64,000 nt of DNA from Aliiruegeria lutimaris. GTDB lineage: Bacteria; Pseudomonadota; Alphaproteobacteria; Rhodobacterales; Rhodobacteraceae. The translations under genes and the position numbers were made by a program. The notes under the pieces are model-generated. The model did not search any database, was not told the DNA's origin, and saw nothing but the letters and a program-made list of their open reading frames with translations. Shown here in pieces: positions 20,837 to 35,634 of this stretch. Within the stretch, counting starts at the first letter, position 1. Each line of letters starts with the position of its first letter. The stretch lies in the NCBI RefSeq assembly GCF_900099935.1, contig NZ_FNEK01000022.1:1-64000 (forward strand), read 5' to 3'.

Positions 20837-20905
20837 GGAAATACGCCGCTTGCGGAAGAGTGTGTCGCCGCACCCTGCCGGTTCATTGGGAGCTTGATGC
20901 GGAGA

Positions 20906-21020
20906 TTGGGGGCGCTGCCCCCAAGCCCCCGGGATATTTCCAGTCAGAAGAAGACAGAGCGACCCTGACATTTTCTTCTGACTGAAAATATCCCCGCCGG
21001 AGGCACGATCCGTAGGATCG
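20906..21020. repeat. Palindromic intergenic repeat, copy 1
   Basis: A 115-nt element with three parts. First is a short hairpin (TTGGGGGCGCTGCCCCCAA at 20906-20924). Second is a large imperfect inverted repeat with arms GGATATTTC-CAGTCAGAAGAAG and TTCTTCTGACTG-AAAATATCCC. Third is a closing hairpin CGATC-CGTAG-GATCG at 21006-21020. Copies 2 and 3 in this window share all three parts. The only gene-free space between the DUF2064 gene and RNase R (20837-21175) is otherwise empty. The promoter for rnr probably lies at 21021-21175. Confidence 0.9.
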
Positions 21021-23480: not shown

Positions 23481-24611
23481 ATGACCCGTCCTGCATTCGA
23501 TGCCTGGATCGCCGAGTTTCGACAGCGGGCTCTTCGGGCCGGGCTCTTGGAAGACGTGCTCGACAGCGCCTTGGCCGGACTGGAACCGAACGCTTCGGCA
23601 ATCGAGAAGGACAGCAACCAGGCCGAATTCACGCGCCCGGTTTGGGATTATCTCGACATGGCCGTTTCGGCGGATCGGGTTTGTACCGGTCGGGTGGCGA
23701 TGACAGCTAATGCCGCGCTGTTCGCCGGAATCAAGGCGCGTTTTGCCGTCCCTTCGGAGATCGTCGCCGCGATATGGGGTGTCGAGACGCGTTTCGGAGC
23801 GATACGGGGGGCGGAACCGGTCCTTCCGGCGCTGGCGACATTGGCTTGGGAAGGGCGTCGGGCGGCGTTTTTCGAAAGTGAATTGCTGGCTGCGCTGGAG
23901 ATCCTTCAGGCCGGAGATGTCGGCTCTGAAAGGATGCTGGGAAGCTGGGCCGGGGCCATGGGCCACACGCAATTCATGCCCTCGACCTATCTGCAACATG
24001 CCGTGGATTTTGACGAGGACGGGCGCCGGGACATCTGGGGAGACGACCCGAGCGACGCGCTTGCCTCCGCGGCGTCCTACCTGTCGAAATCGGGTTGGGC
24101 CGATAGTCTGCGTTGGGGCGCGGAGGTTCGATTGCCGGATGGGTTCGACCTGTCCCTGACCGGCCGGCAGACATGGAAGCCCGTGCGGGAATGGCAGGCA
24201 CTTGGCGTGGCGATATTCGAAACCGGCGCGCTGGCACAAACCGAACCGGCGGCGCTCTTGCTGCCTGCCGGCCATGCCGGCCCGGCCTTCTGCCTGTCCC
24301 GGAATTTCGAGGTTCTGCGCCGTTACAATGCATCGGATGCCTATGCGCTGGCCGTTTCCTTGCTGGCGGACCGTCTTGCGGGCCGTGGCGCCTTGCATCG
24401 GGAATGGCCGCGCGGGCTGCGCTTGCCCGACCGGGCGCAGCTTGCCGAGCTGCAGCGCCTTCTGACCGGGATGGGGTTCGATACGCAGGGTGCCGATGGT
24501 CTGGCCGGCCCCAATACGGCGGCGGCGATCCGCGCCTATCAGCGTGTCCATGCGCTGCCCGCCGACGGGTTCGCCACGCTGGACCTGCTGGACAGGATGC
24601 GAAGGAGCTAA
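23481..24611 (+). CDS. Lytic murein transglycosylase (MltB/SLT_2 type) with peptidoglycan-binding domain
   Basis: A 376-residue muramidase-like enzyme. The SLT_2 catalytic domain has IWGVETRFGAIRG with the catalytic Glu near residue 101, and the WAGAMGHTQFMPSTYL block. The C-terminal ~60 residues are a PG_binding_1 domain (LAELQRLLTGMGFDTQGADG; GPNTAAAIRAYQ). No signal peptide or lipobox is visible from ATG 23481, odd for a periplasmic enzyme. The true start could lie elsewhere, or export may be non-classical. The stop codon overlaps the end of the convergent amphi-Trp gene by 4 bp. Confidence 0.88.
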   Translation: MTRPAFDAWIAEFRQRALRAGLLEDVLDSALAGLEPNASAIEKDSNQAEFTRPVWDYLDMAVSADRVCTGRVAMTANAALFAGIKARFAVPSEIVAAIWGVETRFGAIRGAEPVLPALATLAWEGRRAAFFESELLAALEILQAGDVGSERMLGSWAGAMGHTQFMPSTYLQHAVDFDEDGRRDIWGDDPSDALASAASYLSKSGWADSLRWGAEVRLPDGFDLSLTGRQTWKPVREWQALGVAIFETGALAQTEPAALLLPAGHAGPAFCLSRNFEVLRRYNASDAYALAVSLLADRLAGRGALHREWPRGLRLPDRAQLAELQRLLTGMGFDTQGADGLAGPNTAAAIRAYQRVHALPADGFATLDLLDRMRRS

Positions 24612-24874
24612 CCTATCTTCGGGGCGTTCTTGCTCTCCACGGGCCTCGACTCGTCGTTCCAGGTGATGCGCAGGTCCACACGGTTGGAGCCATCGGCCCG
24701 TTCGGCTCGAATGCGCAGGTTCAACAGCCCGTCCGGCTCCAGGGCAATCTCGCCATCCTCGTCGCTCAGAACCAGCTCGCCCTTGCCGATCCCCTTGGTC
24801 AGCGCTTCGAGCAGGGCCTTCACGGTCTTGCGTGTCTGCAAGGAGTCGTGGCGAAACTTGCCATCTGTCTTCAT
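24608..24874 (-). CDS. Amphi-Trp domain protein of the GAK system
   Basis: An 88-residue small protein made almost only of an amphi-Trp domain: FRHDSLQTRKTVKALLEAL helix, GELVLSDEDGEIALEP, then LRIRAERADGSNRVDLRITW, the amphipathic strand ending in the conserved Trp. The family is one of the defining members of the GAK set (ATP-grasp, amphi-Trp, kinase); its function is unknown. ATG 24874 overlaps the stop of the 63-aa gene upstream as ATGA. It is the last gene of a chain of overlapping genes starting at 29094. Confidence 0.88.
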   Translation of the reverse strand: MKTDGKFRHDSLQTRKTVKALLEALTKGIGKGELVLSDEDGEIALEPDGLLNLRIRAERADGSNRVDLRITWNDESRPVESKNAPKIG

Positions 24875-25062
24875 GCGATCTCCGCCTCCCAGTCGTGGCG
24901 CTCGGGATAGAAGTGCCTGGCCTTCGCATCGTCCGAACGCAGCCCGACCACATCCCCGCCCGGAAAGACAAGCGTCGCGCCACATCCCACCACCGTCAAC
25001 CCCGCGCGCCGTCGCGAGACGCGGTCGGGCGTCGCATCGGCCTCGATCTGCGTCACCGTCAT
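24871..25062 (-). CDS. Unrecognised 63-aa protein inside the GAK operon
   Basis: A small gene with 4-bp ATGA overlaps at both ends, with the HprK-like kinase stop upstream and the amphi-Trp start downstream. That makes it very likely translated. It begins MTVTQIEADATPDRVSRRRA, has a hydrophobic, Gly-rich core with one Cys (VVGCGATLVFPGGDVVGL) and ends acidic with aromatic and His residues (HFYPERHDWEAEIA). No signal peptide. I know no family for it. Its place suggests a small partner, or a substrate or carrier protein, for the ATP-grasp and kinase enzymes; that is inference. Confidence 0.75.
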   Translation of the reverse strand: MTVTQIEADATPDRVSRRRAGLTVVGCGATLVFPGGDVVGLRSDDAKARHFYPERHDWEAEIA

Positions 25063-26138
25063 GTCTCGGCGAAAAGGGCCTGTCCGGCGTCGAAGAGCGC
25101 GTCGAAATCGAGCTTGCCCCGGATCTCGAAGATGTCCACGCCTTCCAGCGCATCGAGATAGCCCTGCGGGTCGGGCCGCTCGCCATCGGTCAGAAAGGCG
25201 CCCGTTGGTTTCTGATAGAACGGGCCGGGGCTTTTCATGATCGCGGCGAGCAGGTCCGGCCGGTCGGCAAGCATGACCGGTTCGACCGCCATCGGCGTAT
25301 CGGAGTCGCGATGCCAGTTGAGCACCCAGAAATGGGTGAGAGGCCCTTCGAAACACACCCGTCCGGTGCCGTAGACCTGCCCGACATGCAGGTCGTGCTT
25401 CTCTTCCAGTTTCCACAATGCTTCCCCCGGCATGGCCGCCAGTTCGGCCCGCCGGACATTGTCCAGCATGCCGTGCAGTCGTGGATTGCCGTGGATCGTG
25501 CCGGGGTTGATCCTCGGCAGCTTGGGAATGCCGAGCGCATCGGGCGGGGTGCCCTTGCGCACCAGCAGCCTGTCGCCGGTGATATAGGCAAGCCCGTCTA
25601 TATCCATCAGCCGCAGCACCGAGGTCGATTTTCCGCCGCCCGACAGCCCGGCAATGCCCAGCGAGCGGCGGCCATTGCCGAGGGCTGCGGCATGGCAGAT
25701 CTGCCAGCCCTGCCGCTGGCAAATATTGAGAAACTGCGTGTTGACGAAGTTGATCACCTGGTTGGGGTGCTCGGCGGCCGGGCCGAAGGCGACCAGCCGC
25801 TCCGGGGATTGCACGAAGCTCACCCCGGTGCGGACCTTGTGGACCAACCGCCCGTCTTCAAGATCGAAGATCGCGTCCTTGCGCCCGGTCTTGCCCGGTT
25901 CGCGCGCCCAGTCGACCCAATCGGGCGCCGGGGTGAGGGTCTGGCCGTCAAGCACCTCGACAGTGGCATCCGGATTCCCCGGCGCGTCGAGTGCGTCGGA
26001 GAAATAATCCGCCAGTATACTGCGCAGCGGTTCGGCGCAGATGAGCGCCAGCCGCAGATGTCCCACCGCGAGGTGGATCGGCTCGGAACCGTCCAGCGCG
26101 GAAAAGTCCAGCCGGTCCAGAACCTCGTCCGTCCTCAT
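25059..26138 (-). CDS. HprK-related kinase B (GAK system)
   Basis: A 359-residue kinase related to HPr kinase/phosphorylase. The P-loop is GLSGGGKST at 164-172, preceded by CHAAALG (residue ~149) and followed by ITGDRLLVRKG (187-196), matching the P-loop, Walker-B region and base of HprK-like enzymes. The N-terminal ~140 residues are a family-specific domain. By family it should be a protein or small-molecule kinase; no HPr or PTS gene is nearby. Start and stop overlap the ATP-grasp and 63-aa genes by 4 bp each. The family name comes from the GAK gene set as I recall it. Confidence 0.88.
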   Translation of the reverse strand: MRTDEVLDRLDFSALDGSEPIHLAVGHLRLALICAEPLRSILADYFSDALDAPGNPDATVEVLDGQTLTPAPDWVDWAREPGKTGRKDAIFDLEDGRLVHKVRTGVSFVQSPERLVAFGPAAEHPNQVINFVNTQFLNICQRQGWQICHAAALGNGRRSLGIAGLSGGGKSTSVLRLMDIDGLAYITGDRLLVRKGTPPDALGIPKLPRINPGTIHGNPRLHGMLDNVRRAELAAMPGEALWKLEEKHDLHVGQVYGTGRVCFEGPLTHFWVLNWHRDSDTPMAVEPVMLADRPDLLAAIMKSPGPFYQKPTGAFLTDGERPDPQGYLDALEGVDIFEIRGKLDFDALFDAGQALFAET

Positions 26139-27019
26139 CCGCGGATCTTTCCGATCACGTGATCGGCCACCAGTCCGGGCGCGTCGATGCCGCAGGCATA
26201 TTTCGCGCCGCCATAGCCTCCGAAGGCGGAGACCTCGAAGACGATTGGCCCCTGCGGGGTAAGGGCGATATCCACCGTGGTAAAGGTTAGGCCAAACGGC
26301 TCTTGTGCCTTGCGGGCCATCTCGATCAGCTCCGCATCCGGCTCGAAGGGCTCGTATTTGCCGCCCGAGTCGATGGTCGTGTTCCAGGTGTTGCCCTGAG
26401 AAGCCCGCGCATAGGTGCCCAGGTACTCCCCGTCCAGGAAGATCAGGCCCAGATCCTTGCCCGACAAGTCCAGCTTCTTCTGGATATACATCACCGGGTT
26501 GTTCGAGGCGAAAGAGGCGATCTGGTTGATGGCGCGGAAGGAGTCTCCCTCGATCAGCGCCATTCCGCGCGCTTTGGTCGAGAAGAGCGGCTTGAACACG
26601 GCGGTGCCGAATTCGGCCGCTGTTTCAAGGGCGACCTCCGGGTCCTCGGTGATCACCGTCGGCGGGATCGGCACGCCGGTCGCGGCGAGCGTGACGGTGC
26701 AGGCCAACCGGTCGATCAGGCGGATGATGGCCTCCGGATCGCTGAAGACCTGCACGCCCCGGGCCTGCGCGTATCGCAGGATCTCCATCCGGTCGAGCAC
26801 GTCCGGTTTGTAGATCTCGGAAATCTTCTTGATGATCAGCCCGTCGAGCTTGCACAGGTCGATATTGTCGTAGAGCATCGTGCCCCGCTCGAGGTCCAGC
26901 GTGACATGGCCCATGTCGATCACCAGCCGGAAACCGGTGCGTTCCTCGACCGCGTCGGCAAGCGCCTCGGTCGACCATTTTCCGGGGATACCTACGACCC
27001 CGATTCTCAAATCAGTCAC
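26135..27019 (-). CDS. GAK system ATP-grasp enzyme
   Basis: A 294-residue RimK-like ATP-grasp ligase. The pre-grasp domain is at 1-105 (LRIGVVGIPGKWSTEALADA). ATP-binding elements include VFKPLFSTKARGM (P-loop-like, ~141-153) and YIQKKLDLSGKDLGLIFLDG. The metal-binding end is IVFEVSAFGG near residue 275. Such enzymes join a carboxylate to an amine or thiol using ATP, often on peptides. The substrate is unknown; small proteins in the same operon are candidates. It overlaps the phosphotransferase gene by 8 bp and the kinase gene by 4 bp. Confidence 0.88.
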   Translation of the reverse strand: MTDLRIGVVGIPGKWSTEALADAVEERTGFRLVIDMGHVTLDLERGTMLYDNIDLCKLDGLIIKKISEIYKPDVLDRMEILRYAQARGVQVFSDPEAIIRLIDRLACTVTLAATGVPIPPTVITEDPEVALETAAEFGTAVFKPLFSTKARGMALIEGDSFRAINQIASFASNNPVMYIQKKLDLSGKDLGLIFLDGEYLGTYARASQGNTWNTTIDSGGKYEPFEPDAELIEMARKAQEPFGLTFTTVDIALTPQGPIVFEVSAFGGYGGAKYACGIDAPGLVADHVIGKIRG

Positions 27020-28640
27020 TGAACAACTCCCTGATCGGCAATTTGAATCTGTTTTCCTTGCCTTCTGGACAGCTCAATACCCGTTCCAGAAGGAAACGCC
27101 CACGCAGGAACATCCGTCTTGCATGGGCCTTGTCGTAAATGAAGCGTGTAGAGGTCACGAAACTGCGGGCCAGCCCAAGCGCCAGGCGAAATTCGAAGCT
27201 CGTATCTTTCTGGCTGCGCGCGAATCTTGCCGCTATGGCGTGAAAATCCTCTGCCACGCGGGTGATGCGGTCGCGAACCGGCCCGTCCTGGATCTGCAGC
27301 CGGTAGTTCGAAACCATGAAGACCGACACGTCCTGAACGTAATCGGTATAGCGGGAGCGGTGCAGGTCGATGAAGCGGATTCTCTGTTCCGCGGGGTCGT
27401 AGATCACGTTGTCGATGTTGAAATCGCCATGGATATAGACCGAGAACGGCGCGGGCAGTGCCTTTTCCCGCGCGGCGGCTTGCCGCACCAACGCATCGAA
27501 GCCGGGCAGGGAGAGCCCGCCGAGCCGCACGGGGTGGGTTGCGAAATCGGGATGCACGCGGCGCACATCGTGCAAGCGGCCGGCAAGTTGGCGCATGGAG
27601 GCCATCTCGGCCGGCTCGTCCGTGCGGGTGCTCTTCCAGATATCGCGCAGGGTTTTCGCCAGCGCTTTCTGCGCCTCGGCAAGCCGCGTTTCGCTTTCGC
27701 CCAGCAGGATCTGCTCGAAGGTCTGGCCCGAGAGATGTTCGATCAGAAGCGCCGCCGACTGCCCGCGCTTCTCGTAGGACAGGATCCGCGGCGCGAGGCC
27801 AGGATAGATCGAATGCCAGGATTTCACCCCGGCGCGCTCTTCCCGGACCTTGCTCAACGCGCCATCCTTGAAAACGGCGTCGACATCGCCATCGCGCGAG
27901 CGCACCGAGGAAATGGCGCTGCCGGAGCGTGTCTCGGCCAGCGGTTCCAGCTCGACTGCTTCCTCCCGCGCATCATTGCCCGACAGGATCGAACGCAGGG
28001 TGAAATAGCGTTCGAACTGCACCGACTGTCCGATATTGACCGACAGGATCGCCTCGCTCACCGCTTGCAGCGCATCACCCATGCGGTGGATCTCGTTGGC
28101 GGCCAGCAGGCTGTTGGAGAGATCCTCGGTATGTTTGGAGCCGCGCATGTCGCGCGTATAAGTGCGGAACATCTGGTCGTAATGATCGTCCAGGCGGGTC
28201 TTGATCTGACCGATGGCGATGGCCTGCCGGCTGTCGCGCGCGTCGATCGCATCGGGTACGTCCGAGACGCCGCCACGCACCCGCTTGATCATCTTGGGAT
28301 AGGCCTCGGGGCGCAGCAGAGACTTGCGACGCACCTGCTCGGCGTGAAACAGGCTGCGCCGGGCAAGCCGGCTCAACAGCTCCAGGTTGCGCGCGACCAT
28401 GTCCATGTTCTGCAGCAGCAGCCGCTGCGACGGCCCCAGCTTGCGCGCGCCAAGCCCCTTCTGGGACGCGCTATGCACCCGGGTGCGCAGGTTGTCGGCA
28501 TAGCCCGCGCGCAGCATGACCTTCTGTGCGCTGGCCGCGTCGGGGCGTTGGAAATAGTCCTGCACCGCCGAGAGCTGCCCATTGAGCTCGGCGCACAGGA
28601 AATGCAGGTTCTCGCGGATCGCCCGCGGAAGCTCAGCCAT
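27012..28640 (-). CDS. PhoU-like helical domain fused to an APH-type phosphotransferase
   Basis: A 542-residue two-domain protein. Residues 1-230 are all-helical with repeated patterns (LLLQNMDMVARNLELLSRLA; RMGDALQAVSEAILSVN) like PhoU proteins that bind metal or phosphate-signalling partners. Residues ~240-500 are an aminoglycoside-phosphotransferase/choline-kinase fold with the catalytic loop HGDFNIDN at 404-411 and metal-binding DLHRS at 425-429. Both catalytic Asp are present, so kinase activity is plausible. Resistance is unlikely given the operon. It sits between a Nudix gene (8-bp overlap) and the ATP-grasp gene (8-bp overlap) and looks like a local GAK member. Confidence 0.8.
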   Translation of the reverse strand: MAELPRAIRENLHFLCAELNGQLSAVQDYFQRPDAASAQKVMLRAGYADNLRTRVHSASQKGLGARKLGPSQRLLLQNMDMVARNLELLSRLARRSLFHAEQVRRKSLLRPEAYPKMIKRVRGGVSDVPDAIDARDSRQAIAIGQIKTRLDDHYDQMFRTYTRDMRGSKHTEDLSNSLLAANEIHRMGDALQAVSEAILSVNIGQSVQFERYFTLRSILSGNDAREEAVELEPLAETRSGSAISSVRSRDGDVDAVFKDGALSKVREERAGVKSWHSIYPGLAPRILSYEKRGQSAALLIEHLSGQTFEQILLGESETRLAEAQKALAKTLRDIWKSTRTDEPAEMASMRQLAGRLHDVRRVHPDFATHPVRLGGLSLPGFDALVRQAAAREKALPAPFSVYIHGDFNIDNVIYDPAEQRIRFIDLHRSRYTDYVQDVSVFMVSNYRLQIQDGPVRDRITRVAEDFHAIAARFARSQKDTSFEFRLALGLARSFVTSTRFIYDKAHARRMFLRGRFLLERVLSCPEGKENRFKLPIRELFSD

Positions 28641-29094
28641 GGAAGCTCCCGAGATAGAAGGGCGCGTCCGGGTCGAGCAGGTAGGAGGCGAAACTCGGCC
28701 GGAACAGTTCCGCCTGTTCGATCGGATCGGCCCAGACCGTGTCTATCTGCGAGCGGTCCGGCTTGGGGCCGAGCCGGGGCGTGTAATCGGCCGGCAGTTC
28801 ACAGGAGAACAGCGCCTCGATCTGGTGGCGCAGCCCGCCTTGCGTGGGTTTGTAGACTTCGGCCATGTGCAGCAGCGGCCCGACAGTCACCTCGGCGCCG
28901 ATCTCCTCGAAACACTCGCGGGCAATACCCTGCGGCATCGTTTCGCCCATTTCCTGCGCACCGCCCGGCAGGGTCAGGAAATCCGGCTTGCCGGGGTGGC
29001 GTTTGACCTGCACCAGCAGTTTGCCCTGGCGGAAGATCACGGCGCGGACGGTTGCCCGGATCGGGGGAAGAAAGACGGTCGATGTCATCATCAT
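28633..29094 (-). CDS. Nudix hydrolase (GAK operon)
   Basis: A 153-residue Nudix protein and first gene of the minus-strand GAK operon. The Nudix box spans the loop starting GGAQEMGETMPQGIARECFE and ends EEIGAEV, with the catalytic Arg-Glu...Glu-Glu pattern complete. It begins RATVRAVIFRQGKLLVQVKR. It should hydrolyse a nucleoside-diphosphate-linked compound; the substrate is not evident. Three Met codons stand at the start (29094, 29091, 29088). A 62-bp divergent promoter region separates it from the CofD-like gene. Confidence 0.85.
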   Translation of the reverse strand: MMMTSTVFLPPIRATVRAVIFRQGKLLVQVKRHPGKPDFLTLPGGAQEMGETMPQGIARECFEEIGAEVTVGPLLHMAEVYKPTQGGLRHQIEALFSCELPADYTPRLGPKPDRSQIDTVWADPIEQAELFRPSFASYLLDPDAPFYLGSFHG

Positions 29095-29156
29095 TCGTCC
29101 ATATAAATGTAACCGAACAGCTTCATGACAGAGCTTAACAGCCGCGGGGACCGACA

Positions 29157-30344
29157 GTGTCAGACCTGACCATTTCTCGCAATGCCGAATTCCCGGACCC
29201 GTTGCGCATTGCCCGCGCGAAGGCCTCGCCCAATCTCGGCCCGCGGCTGCTGTTCTTTACCGGGGGCAGCGCGCTCAACGACATCTCCCGCAGCCTCAAG
29301 CGCTATACTCATAATTCGGTGCACCTGATCACACCGTTCGACTCCGGCGGTTCCTCGCGGGTTCTGCGCGACGCCTTCGACATGCCGGCGGTCGGCGATC
29401 TGCGTTCGCGCCTCATGGCGCTGGCGGATGAGACCGATCTGGGCCAGCCCGATATCTTCGCGCTCTTCTCACACCGCTTGCCGGTCGACGTGCCGCGACA
29501 ACAGGCGGCCGCAGAATTCGAGGCGATCCTGCGGGCTGAACATCCGCTCATGCAGGCGATCTCGCTGCCGATGCAGACGCTGATCCTGCAGCAGTTGGAG
29601 AGCTTCGTCGAACACGCGACCGGCGATTTCGACTTTCGCCGCGCCAGTATCGGCAACCTGATCCTGGCGGGCGGGTATTTCTCCTCCGGGCGCGAGCTGG
29701 AACCGGCGCTGTTCTTGATGTCGAAAATGGTCCACGCACTCGGAACCGTGCAGGCGGTGGCGGATGTGAACCTGCATATCGGCGCCGAGTTACAGGACGG
29801 AGGCAGGATTATCGGCCAGAAGGAACTCACCGGGAAGGAAGCCGCGCCTCTCAGCCAGCCCATCCGCCGGATGTTCCTCTCCGATGGCAGGAACGAACTT
29901 CCCGCCGAGGCCGTGCGCCTGCCCGAGCGGAACCGTCTGCTGATCGAGCGGGCAGATCTGATCTGCTATCCTCCGGGCAGTCTATATTCCAGCGTCATCG
30001 CCAACCTGCTGCCGGCCGGTGTCGGGCAGGCCGTGGCCGCGCGTGGCGTGCCCAAGATCTATGTTCCCAGCCTCGGTGTGGACCCGGAATGCAACGGCTC
30101 GGGCCTCGGCGATCAGGTGGGGGTGTTGCTGTCCGCATTGCGGGCCGATGCCGGGGCTGATTGCCCATCGGAGCGGTTGATGAGCGCGGTGATCTGCGAT
30201 CGAGGCCGGCTTGGAGCGCAGGAAGCGCAGGAGATCGAGGCCCGTCACGGGGTGCCCTGCATCGCCGCCGATCTGGCGCAGGAAGAGCGGGCCGATCGCT
30301 ACGATCCGGTCCGGCTCTGTGATGCACTGATTTCGCTGTGCTGA
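29157..30344 (+). CDS. GAK system CofD-like protein
   Basis: A 395-residue protein of the CofD/YvcK superfamily. The phosphate-binding start LLFFTGGSALNDISRSLKRY and the loop TPFDSGGSSRVLRDAF are conserved, as is the asparagine-containing GNLILAGGYFSSG. The C-terminal half has the ICYPPGSLYSSVIANLLPAG block. CofD transfers a phospholactyl or similar group to a deazaflavin; YvcK binds UDP-sugars. The GAK relatives have no assigned reaction. A GTG start at 29157 is used, with CGGGGA upstream. It is divergent from the rest of the GAK genes, and the SixA-like/Nudix gene follows after 15 bp. Confidence 0.87.
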   Translation: MSDLTISRNAEFPDPLRIARAKASPNLGPRLLFFTGGSALNDISRSLKRYTHNSVHLITPFDSGGSSRVLRDAFDMPAVGDLRSRLMALADETDLGQPDIFALFSHRLPVDVPRQQAAAEFEAILRAEHPLMQAISLPMQTLILQQLESFVEHATGDFDFRRASIGNLILAGGYFSSGRELEPALFLMSKMVHALGTVQAVADVNLHIGAELQDGGRIIGQKELTGKEAAPLSQPIRRMFLSDGRNELPAEAVRLPERNRLLIERADLICYPPGSLYSSVIANLLPAGVGQAVAARGVPKIYVPSLGVDPECNGSGLGDQVGVLLSALRADAGADCPSERLMSAVICDRGRLGAQEAQEIEARHGVPCIAADLAQEERADRYDPVRLCDALISLC

Positions 30345-30359
30345 CCCCGGGGGCTGCCG

Positions 30360-31295
30360 ATGACCCGTGAACTCCTGCTGCTGCGAAACGGAAAGGCCGA
30401 GGCCACCCCACCCCGTGAGCTAAAGGATGGCGGCAAGCGGCAGGTTCAGCGCGTGGGCGTCTGGCTGCAGTCGCAGGGGTTGTTGCCGGATCATGTCCGT
30501 GCGGCCCCGAGTGAGCGCGCGAAGGTTTCGGCACAGAAGGCTCTCAAGGCGGGTGGGGCCAGCGCGGGGATCATCGCAAAGGACGCCCGCCTGAAGAGCC
30601 GTGCGCTCACGGATGTGCTTGCCTGCCTCGCCGATATTCCGGTGGAGGCAAGGCGTCCGATGATCGTGGCGCATCGGAAGCTGCTGGAGCGGCTCGCCCG
30701 CCACCTGAGCGGCGATGCGCGCCTGTGTCTGCCAACCGGAACGCTGCTGCGGCTGGCCCTGCCCGACGACTGGACGTCGCTTCCGGCCGGATGTGCCGAG
30801 ATCCTGGAACTGCTGCACCCCGAGAGCCTGCCCGAACGGTTTCCCTTTCCCGGGCCGGGTGGTCCGGAATGGCGCGACAGGCCGGCCTATTACTATCGGC
30901 AATCGGCCGTGATCCCGTGGAGGCTGGAAGGGGACGCGCTGCGGATTCTCGTCATCACGTCGAGCAAGCGCAGTCATTGGGTCGTGCCCAAGGGTATCCA
31001 CGAGCCCGGCCTGAGCGCGCAGGCTTCCGCCGCGCATGAGGCCGAGGAAGAAGCGGGCGTTTTGGGCGAGGTCGGCGAGGCGCCGCTGGGGGAATTCACG
31101 GTGGAAAAATGGGGCGGGGTCTGCCGGGTGTCCGTCTACCCGATGCGCGTGACGGAAATATTCGATCAGGAGACGTGGGAGGAAAGCCATCGCAGCCGCC
31201 TCTGGGTCTCGCCCGAAGAAGCCTTGCAGCATCTCAAACATGATGGTCTGAAGGAGATCGTCAGGCGTTTCGCGGATGCGTTTTCCGCGCGGTGA
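30360..31295 (+). CDS. Degenerate SixA-like domain fused to a Nudix hydrolase
   Basis: A 311-residue fusion. Residues 1-160 follow a SixA-type histidine-phosphatase layout (LLLLRNGKAE, PDHVRAAPSERA, MIVAHRKLLERLARHLSG, GCAEILELLHP). The nucleophilic His of the RHG/RHA motif is replaced by Asn (residue 10) and the usual GHN motif reads AHR, so phosphatase activity is doubtful. Residues ~175-300 are a Nudix domain of the diphosphoinositol-polyphosphate type (VVPKGIHEPGLSAQASAA to EEEAGVLGE), with His in place of the box Arg but the Glu pair kept. It lies 15 bp after the CofD-like gene and probably forms a unit with it. Confidence 0.8.
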   Translation: MTRELLLLRNGKAEATPPRELKDGGKRQVQRVGVWLQSQGLLPDHVRAAPSERAKVSAQKALKAGGASAGIIAKDARLKSRALTDVLACLADIPVEARRPMIVAHRKLLERLARHLSGDARLCLPTGTLLRLALPDDWTSLPAGCAEILELLHPESLPERFPFPGPGGPEWRDRPAYYYRQSAVIPWRLEGDALRILVITSSKRSHWVVPKGIHEPGLSAQASAAHEAEEEAGVLGEVGEAPLGEFTVEKWGGVCRVSVYPMRVTEIFDQETWEESHRSRLWVSPEEALQHLKHDGLKEIVRRFADAFSAR

Positions 31296-35453: not shown

Positions 35454-35520
35454 TTGATGGGACGGGGAGCAGACGGAATTGCCGAGCCAGCGGACATCCG
35501 ATCAGTTTCTTGGGTGAAGA

Positions 35521-35634
35521 TTGGGGGCGCTGCCCCCAAAACCCCGGGATATTTCCGGTCAGAAGAAGAGAGGTAACAAGACAGACTTCTTCTGACAGAA
35601 AATATCCCCGCCGGAGGCGCGATCCATCGGATCG
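35521..35634. repeat. Palindromic intergenic repeat, copy 2
   Basis: A 114-nt copy with the same order as copy 1: TTGGGGGCGCTGCCCCCAA hairpin, long arms GGATATTTC-CGGTCAGAAGAAG and CTTCTTCTGACAG-AAAATATCCC, and the closing hairpin CGATC-CATCG-GATCG. The outer closing hairpin has covaried in its loop. It lies between the convergent NYN and TetR genes, where a bidirectional terminator would be expected. Confidence 0.9.

Follow-up and report, generated by a model that had tools for sequence, protein, structure and literature searches.

An apparently phosphatase-depleted GAK locus in Aliiruegeria lutimaris and a tentative link to phosphate storage

A stretch of 64,000 nucleotides from Aliiruegeria lutimaris (contig NZ_FNEK01000022.1, positions 1 to 64,000; hereafter the window) carries at positions 24608-31295 a locus of the GAK system, which comparison with its relatives indicates to be a derived form: the genes for a histidine phosphatase (HP) and a calcineurin-like metallophosphatase (MPP) appear to have been deleted, and the synthetic half, with its kinases and ATP-grasp enzyme, appears to have been conserved under purifying selection. 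GAK is already recognized as a set of NCBIfam families, and its genes carry names in the public annotation of marine Pseudomonadota. No description of its function was found in a search of open PubMed Central (PMC) papers, in keeping with an earlier note on this DNA, which held that no product or phenotype is known. What is new here is the definition of a six-gene core, the recognition of a PhoU-APH fusion and the MPP as markers, the reinterpretation of a 63-amino acid (aa) open reading frame (ORF), the phosphatase-less variant, an altered active site in the ATP-grasp enzyme, and a modest link, checked against control loci, to CHAD and ParA genes. With the core defined, a false "small protein" removed, and a polyphosphate hypothesis in place, a list of enzyme names becomes testable, and the natural phosphatase-less variant offers a ready comparison for the role of the erasing half of the system.

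Assignment of the locus to GAK

The locus consists of six overlapping minus-strand ORFs and a divergent plus-strand gene pair (Table 1). Counted from amphi-Trp to Nudix, the five minus-strand junctions overlap by 4, 4, 4, 8, and 8 nt, and the genes and coordinates are as the earlier note gave them. The proteins were scored with NCBIfam profiles against curated cut-offs and scanned with Pfam. All four hallmark families, TIGR04354 to TIGR04357, lie above their cut-offs; the search could have displaced the kinase, ATP-grasp, and CofD-like proteins from the GAK-specific families in which the note had put them and instead placed all three there. In Pfam, the 542-aa protein has PhoU and APH domains and two other proteins have Nudix domains; the Amphi-Trp model there stayed under its cut-off (23.6/27). 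That the locus is GAK is virtually certain. A close relative of the window, whose genome measures 5.8 Mb, is locus L040 of Aliiruegeria sabulilitoris, with an ATP-grasp enzyme 96% identical. Much the same gene order, which the note had proposed to seek by neighborhood comparison, recurs in 80 named relatives, and TIGR04356 is over cut-off in only 12 of 299 sampled Pseudomonadota genomes; the arrangement goes beyond chance.

Loss of the phosphatase genes

The window differs from the usual GAK operon in having neither HP nor MPP between the kinase and amphi-Trp genes. The comparison covers 92 loci, namely the window and 91 relatives (the 80 named loci and 11 from further genomes); seven of the 92, in which kinase or amphi-Trp was not seen, could not be judged for HP and MPP, leaving 85. 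By profile-coverage thresholds set in this analysis, HP and MPP are both near full length in 77 of these and both absent in seven (the window, L040, L041, L042, L058, L063, and L067); HP alone is absent in one (L122) and MPP alone in none. The kinase-to-MPP spacing in relatives is mostly 470-870 nt and is larger where a SixA-Nudix gene intervenes. Elsewhere in the window's own genome no other MPP match was found, nor any histidine phosphatase match in a search run without a positive control. From these comparisons, two phosphatase genes appear to have been lost in the window's lineage, with conservation of the kinases and the ATP-grasp enzyme.

Of the MPP, a trace is still visible. Within the 63-aa ORF, nucleotides 24889-25053 of the window correspond to residues 395-449 of the MPP of L044 (Tropicimonas sediminicola) with 53% identity, and the proteins of relatives that match this ORF are mostly 430-530 aa long, the match being confined to their C terminus. 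Among 14 genomes with a match to the MPP profile, that of the window is unique in matching by the tail only (positions 378-429 of 429). The ORF itself fell into no NCBIfam or Pfam family at E up to 0.1. Relative to L040 it has accumulated 21 non-synonymous and 11 synonymous changes, giving a ratio of non-synonymous to synonymous rates (dN/dS) of 0.60, a rough estimate from 63 codons, compared with 0.08-0.24 for seven other genes of the locus. This split of changes differs from that of the pooled neighbors (Fisher p 0.0004) and of the kinase alone (p 0.027) and is not distinguishable from neutrality (binomial p 0.23), from which the kinase (p 2e-12), the ATP-grasp enzyme (p 2e-15), and amphi-Trp (p 0.002) all depart. 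The ORF is almost certainly a remnant of the MPP, to judge from alignment and rate of change. Because its reading frame is open in both the window and L040 and its ATG overlaps the stop codon of the kinase gene, translation may persist; no sign of function was seen. The earlier note had taken it for a small protein that is a partner or substrate of the GAK enzymes, a role that we reject because what survives is the end of a metallophosphatase since deleted, with a rate of change not distinguishable from neutral.

A further stage of decay is found at L058:11964-12608, where three short HP fragments and an MPP tail lie between kinase and amphi-Trp.

A third phosphatase activity has probably been lost as well. 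In the SixA-Nudix protein of the window the SixA motif RHG, the His of which we take to be catalytic, reads RNG (nt 30384-30392). The same His is missing from L040, L041, L044, L045, L048, L049, L058, L063, and L071 (mostly Rhodobacterales), the Nudix half being kept, and is retained in L042 and in most of the listed loci whose record titles are gammaproteobacterial.

The core operon and its distribution

The distribution of GAK was surveyed in 299 Pseudomonadota genomes, with the window's genome included among the positives. The 12 genomes with an over-cut-off GAK ATP-grasp enzyme (TIGR04356) are exactly those in which a search with the PhoU-APH alignment (A5, E <=1e-20) found that protein. 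HprK_rel_B is over cut-off in 13, the same 12 and G140, where the match begins at base 214 of a contig. Fourteen genomes match the MPP profile, the 12 and both G140 and G184; in each of the latter two, the contig with the MPP match also has a kinase match close to one end, and on profile matches the MPP is confined, within the sample, to GAK genomes. PhoU-APH, ATP-grasp, and HprK-like kinase are thus, among these genomes, a triad whose members almost always occur together. The triad is not exception-free, because G033 has a truncated ATP-grasp gene (273.7 bits, cut-off 300) and kinase gene (198.9 bits, cut-off 200) at a contig start and shows no match to PhoU-APH or MPP. The G033 genes (G033:C41:1-1668, L132) may reflect decay or an assembly break.

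As the best 80 of 493 relatives, the named loci are biased to close ones; they contain the ATP-grasp gene by construction. In them the kinase is universal (80/80), PhoU-APH nearly so (79/80), and amphi-Trp is found in 75; Nudix (56/80), CofD-like (43/80), and SixA-Nudix (32/80) genes are less constant. From these comparisons, the usual core comprises six genes: PhoU-APH, ATP-grasp, HprK-like kinase, HP (PF00300), MPP (PF00149), and amphi-Trp, the two phosphatase families being judged on the L044 copies. The PhoU-APH gene sits directly before the ATP-grasp gene in the window, as is usual in relatives, and the gap between amphi-Trp and MPP has a median of -4 nt over the named loci; L109 has its PhoU-APH gene split between two ORFs, and L117 deviates in gene order. 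PhoU-APH is a marker for which NCBIfam has no model (its best matches there, to APH and PhoU models, are far under cut-off), and the MPP had no NCBIfam match (E up to 0.01).

GAK ATP-grasp and amphi-Trp also occur together on five plasmid records, all typed as non-mobilizable (five amphi-Trp genes by tblastn). These are NZ_CP042262.1, NZ_CP060438.1, and three Tritonibacter plasmids, all large. In two annotated plasmid regions the order is CofD-like, phosphotransferase, ATP-grasp, HprK-related kinase B, histidine phosphatase, metallophosphoesterase, and amphi-Trp, one of the regions having a Nudix gene after CofD-like. The locus in the window resembles the NCBIfam GAK system, and these annotated Rhodobacterales plasmid copies of it, in its four over-cut-off families in the same operon.

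Predicted activities of the GAK proteins

Conserved residues were read from alignments of amphi-Trp (A3, 40 sequences, 85 members), the kinase (A4, 24 of 91), PhoU-APH (A5, 16 of 89), and SixA-Nudix (A8, 17 of 36); the set also includes A6 (18 of 46) and A7 (15 near-full-length sequences of 78 and three remnants). In the HprK-related kinase B, the P-loop SGGGKST, H149, D189, and R190 are invariant, and the His and Asp are presumably catalytic, as in HPr kinase/phosphorylase (HPrK/P). Its AlphaFold model (predicted local distance difference test score, pLDDT, 93.7) resembles phosphoenolpyruvate carboxykinase (PEPCK; Foldseek E 8.5e-6) and HPrK/P (E 3.5e-5) in predicted fold and P-loop with modest TM-scores, whereas HPrK is missing from the 36 Protein Data Bank (PDB) matches of the sequence profile at E up to 1. 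PhoU-APH has invariant HGDFNxDN and FIDLHRSR motifs, which we take to be of the kind found in active APH kinases; its PDB relatives are PhoU for the first half (E 1.4e-8) and AphA1 for the second (E 0.0015).

The ATP-grasp enzyme has RimK and LysX as its PDB relatives (E 4e-19) and belongs to the same fold family as RimK, LysX, and MptN (148 bits to MptN), although it falls under the RimK family cut-off (TIGR00768, 98.6 vs 143.4). Unlike these ligases, it has Gly for the DxR Arg, Thr for the [WF]xxN Asn, and Ser for the EVN Asn in 12 of 12 GAK sequences (alignment A1). These residues are present in 10 of 10 RimK-like comparators, and their positions presumably serve catalysis in RimK. Because three RimK-type residues are replaced, ligase chemistry is not to be assumed. 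The solved structures nearest to the CofD-like protein are of the UPF0052 type (PDB 2ppv, 2o2z, and 2hzb), which makes it comparable, within the CofD superfamily, to YvcK/GlmR, but it scores under the CofD_related cut-off (100.9/196). The first half of the SixA-Nudix protein is SixA, and the second has DIPP1/2/3 and DDP1 as its nearest solved relatives (best E 4e-14). The MPP has a weak match to ApaH in the PDB (E 0.004 over ~50 residues).

In amphi-Trp, F7, H9, S11, G28, G32, and W72 are invariant; the plasmid amphi-Trp set consists of GAK records only, so that the F-x-H-x-S motif is known here from GAK copies. The AlphaFold model, a helix and four strands (pLDDT 86.6), matched no PDB fold, HPr included (best E 1.2). 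That amphi-Trp is a phospho-acceptor we consider rather doubtful.

Against this background, the earlier note's reading of the enzyme types as a system of synthesis, phosphorylation, and turnover remains plausible, and its ligase component is weakened by the altered active site. The families in its gene list stand; the PhoU domain, the HP and MPP, and the CHAD-ParA link, for which relatives are needed, had escaped it, as had the joining of SixA to Nudix in the gene at 30360-31295.

A possible role in phosphate or polyphosphate storage

The gene content somewhat favors a two-way phosphorylation module. The fuller proposal, which we advance tentatively, is that GAK would be a module for reversible phosphorylation in the service of phosphate or polyphosphate storage, and that the window carries a phosphatase-depleted form of it. 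In outline, the two kinases and the ATP-grasp enzyme would generate a phosphorylated product, with the invariant F-x-H-x-S motif of amphi-Trp or a phosphate-rich small molecule as its carrier. Breakdown would fall to the phosphatases and the DIPP-like Nudix enzyme, and the cycle would serve the storage of phosphate or polyphosphate. A storage role is suggested because CHAD genes flank GAK in several lineages and two of the hydrolase types have polyphosphatase relatives.

CHAD genes flank GAK in 10 of the 91 related loci, 61-1815 nt from the nearest GAK gene, and a ParA gene adjoins CHAD in nine of the ten, L057 having none in the stretch covered. According to the record titles these loci include alpha- and gammaproteobacteria, and they show at least four arrangements: CHAD stands on the CofD-like side in L054, L057, L070, L103, L106, and L107 (with intervening genes in the last three), on the strand of PhoU-APH and upstream of it in L082 and L125, after amphi-Trp in L108, and between MPP and amphi-Trp in L127. 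A CYTH gene lies beside CHAD-ParA in two loci. Of 60 control loci, 20 were arbitrary stretches taken from five GAK genomes, and 40 surrounded RimK-like genes in genomes that have no GAK ATP-grasp enzyme over cut-off. These controls contained no CHAD gene (0/60), no CYTH gene (0/60), and one ParA gene (1/60); for CHAD, the Fisher p is 0.006 when related loci are treated as independent.

In the papers cited, CHAD is described as a polyphosphate-binding module (PMC6537752), a folD-ppk-parA-CHAD cluster as conserved in Acidithiobacillus (PMC10892726), DDP1 as cleaving polyphosphate (PMC8064635), the ApaH-like Ppn2 of yeast as an endopolyphosphatase (PMC8220851), and the spacing of granules in Pseudomonas as regulated (PMC9239181; ParA is not named in the passages covered). 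The CHAD-ParA pair of the Acidithiobacillus cluster also accompanies GAK in some relatives, whereas GAK genes are not mentioned in the passages covered of that paper (PMC10892726) and the window's locus is without CHAD-ParA. The two yeast enzymes, DDP1 (Nudix) and Ppn2, are members of the superfamilies to which the Nudix half of SixA-Nudix and, weakly, the MPP belong; unlike them, GAK has a SixA fusion and a bacterial operon, and its activities are predicted. Elsewhere, the window's genome has two PPK2 genes and single PPK1 and CHAD genes, the CHAD gene lying on another contig.

Two loci with CHAD come from records with unexpected titles, L103 from one titled Halobacteria archaeon (JABDRC010000298.1) and L070 from one titled Enemella evansiae (JAFKDC010000001.1), which we take to be an actinobacterial name. 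Their GAK, CHAD, and ParA genes are arranged as in proteobacteria, and the records are probably mis-binned or mislabeled. On the CofD-like side of L103 there is a CNNM/CorC-type gene (Pfam), and homologous ORFs adjoin GAK in L106 and L109.

Several observations weigh against the proposal. The substrate of each GAK enzyme is only predicted and its chemistry deduced from homology, and polyphosphate leaves the functions of the ATP-grasp and CofD-like proteins unaccounted for. DIPP-type Nudix enzymes and ApaH-type enzymes cleave dinucleotides too. CHAD is absent from the stretch covered in 81 of 91 loci and from the locus in the window; the p value for its adjacency is optimistic, the loci being related, and genome-wide it is not enriched (6/12 GAK genomes vs 153/299 overall), so that such co-occurrence was dropped as evidence. 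Nor is there enrichment near GAK, relative to the controls, of PPK1 (2/91 vs 1/60), PPX (1/91 vs 2/60), or the Na/Pi transporter (2/91 vs 1/60). Adjacency to these three genes (PPK1 and PPX in L108, PPK1 in L106, Na/Pi in L106 and L124) was likewise discarded, because the control loci show similar frequencies. With these points taken into account, a polyphosphate link of GAK is possible and falls short of probable.

More speculative, and unlikely when all of its steps are taken together, is that GAK would be a control system for polyphosphate granules with a chemistry of its own. PhoU-APH, the HprK-like kinases, and a repurposed ATP-grasp enzyme would phosphorylate amphi-Trp (at Ser11) or build a phosphate-rich conjugate; this modification would take place at granules positioned by CHAD-ParA and be erased by the dedicated phosphatase pair; and in some marine Rhodobacterales, including the window's lineage, loss of the eraser would leave the system running one way.

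Alternative explanations

HprK-like kinases and ATP-grasp enzymes act on small proteins in peptide tailoring clusters, and HPrK/P transfers phosphate to a serine of a small protein. GAK might accordingly modify amphi-Trp itself, the ATP-grasp enzyme ligating and the kinases then phosphorylating it, with no connection to polyphosphate. The frequency of amphi-Trp among the named loci and its overlap with the MPP gene suit this explanation, as do its invariant Phe, His, Ser, and Trp and the HPrK/P-like fold of the kinase. The missing PDB fold match of amphi-Trp, extending to HPr, does not. Neighboring genes were tallied by Pfam from a hand-chosen 98 of 202 ORFs (the 25 commonest of 159 families shown), and no dedicated protease or exporter was seen among the recurring families examined; the transporters, named by eye, are generic (ABC in 19 loci, TRAP-type in 14). 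We consider modification of a small protein rather doubtful.

A soluble pyrophosphorylated metabolite, akin to an inositol pyrophosphate or ApnN, would cast the ATP-grasp enzyme as a kinase, with breakdown by the DIPP-like Nudix enzyme, the histidine phosphatase, and the ApaH-like phosphatase. In the eukaryotic enzyme PPIP5K, an ATP-grasp kinase and a histidine phosphatase are joined. The affinity of the Nudix half to DIPP and DDP1, the histidine phosphatase in the core, the weak likeness of the MPP to ApaH, and the want of RimK-type residues in the ATP-grasp enzyme all point this way. By sequence, however, that enzyme is RimK/LysX/MptN-like, and none of its 11 PDB matches (E up to 0.001) is PPIP5K, which leaves this explanation slightly less likely than small-protein modification.

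GAK could also be a regulatory module of the YvcK/HprK type, in which the carbon or phosphate state would be sensed by an HprK-like switch together with a CofD-like and a Nudix partner. In Bacillus, yvcI (encoding a Nudix protein), yvcK, and crh are neighbors, and GAK offers the HprK-like fold, the UPF0052/YvcK-type relatives of its CofD-like protein, and Nudix. NCBIfam and Pfam, however, assign none of the eight window proteins to an HPr or Crh family, the CofD-like gene is optional, and the ATP-grasp and PhoU-APH proteins would go unexplained; we hold a module of this type to be quite improbable. The assembly of an F420-like cofactor by a CofD-like transferase and a CofF/MptN-like ligase, to which sequence similarity to CofD and MptN/CofF would point, can be nearly dismissed, given the CofD-like gene's patchy occurrence among the named loci, its UPF0052 relatives, a CofF score of 31.5 vs a cut-off of 300, and the replaced RimK-type residues.

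Features of the locus and minor observations

Table 1. Coordinates of the GAK locus in the window, with profile scores and curated cut-offs
Feature	Positions	Strand	Basis
Amphi-Trp protein, 88 aa; candidate acceptor or adaptor	24608..24874	-	TIGR04354, 67.4 bits (NCBIfam cut-off 31)
63-aa ORF, almost certainly a remnant, the C-terminal tail of a lost ~450-aa metallophosphatase	24871..25062	-	Alignment to L044 homologue; dN/dS
HprK-related kinase B (HprK_rel_B), 359 aa	25059..26138	-	TIGR04355, 269 bits (NCBIfam cut-off 200)
GAK ATP-grasp enzyme, 294 aa, GTG start	26135..27019	-	TIGR04356, 427.9 bits (NCBIfam cut-off 300)
PhoU-APH fusion, 542 aa	27012..28640	-	Pfam PhoU and APH
PhoU domain of PhoU-APH, aa 116-197	28050-28295	-	Pfam
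APH-type kinase domain of PhoU-APH, aa 283-460	27261-27794	-	Pfam
Nudix hydrolase, 153 aa	28633..29094	-	PF00293, 43.1 bits
Divergent intergenic region, 62 nt	29095..29156	.	
GAK CofD-like protein, 395 aa, GTG start	29157..30344	+	TIGR04357, 466.5 bits (NCBIfam cut-off 340)
SixA and Nudix protein, 311 aa	30360..31295	+	NCBIfam, Pfam, PDB relatives

A simple scan of the divergent intergenic region found no sigma-70-like site. When nine proteins were compared with PADLOC defense models, the sole match was Nudix to one candidate model (34 bits); a role in anti-phage defense was rated low, no locus-specific protein having matched a PADLOC defense model. The CofD-like protein had no relative in a scan of viral contigs. 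A plus-strand ORF at 23481-24611, transglycosylase-like by eye, ends 4 nt inside the amphi-Trp gene in a convergent overlap. Outside GAK, a repeat of ~118 nt occurs in two copies, at 20903-21020 and 35518-35634 of the window, the reported parts being 93% and 92% identical; its halves appear partly complementary to each other.

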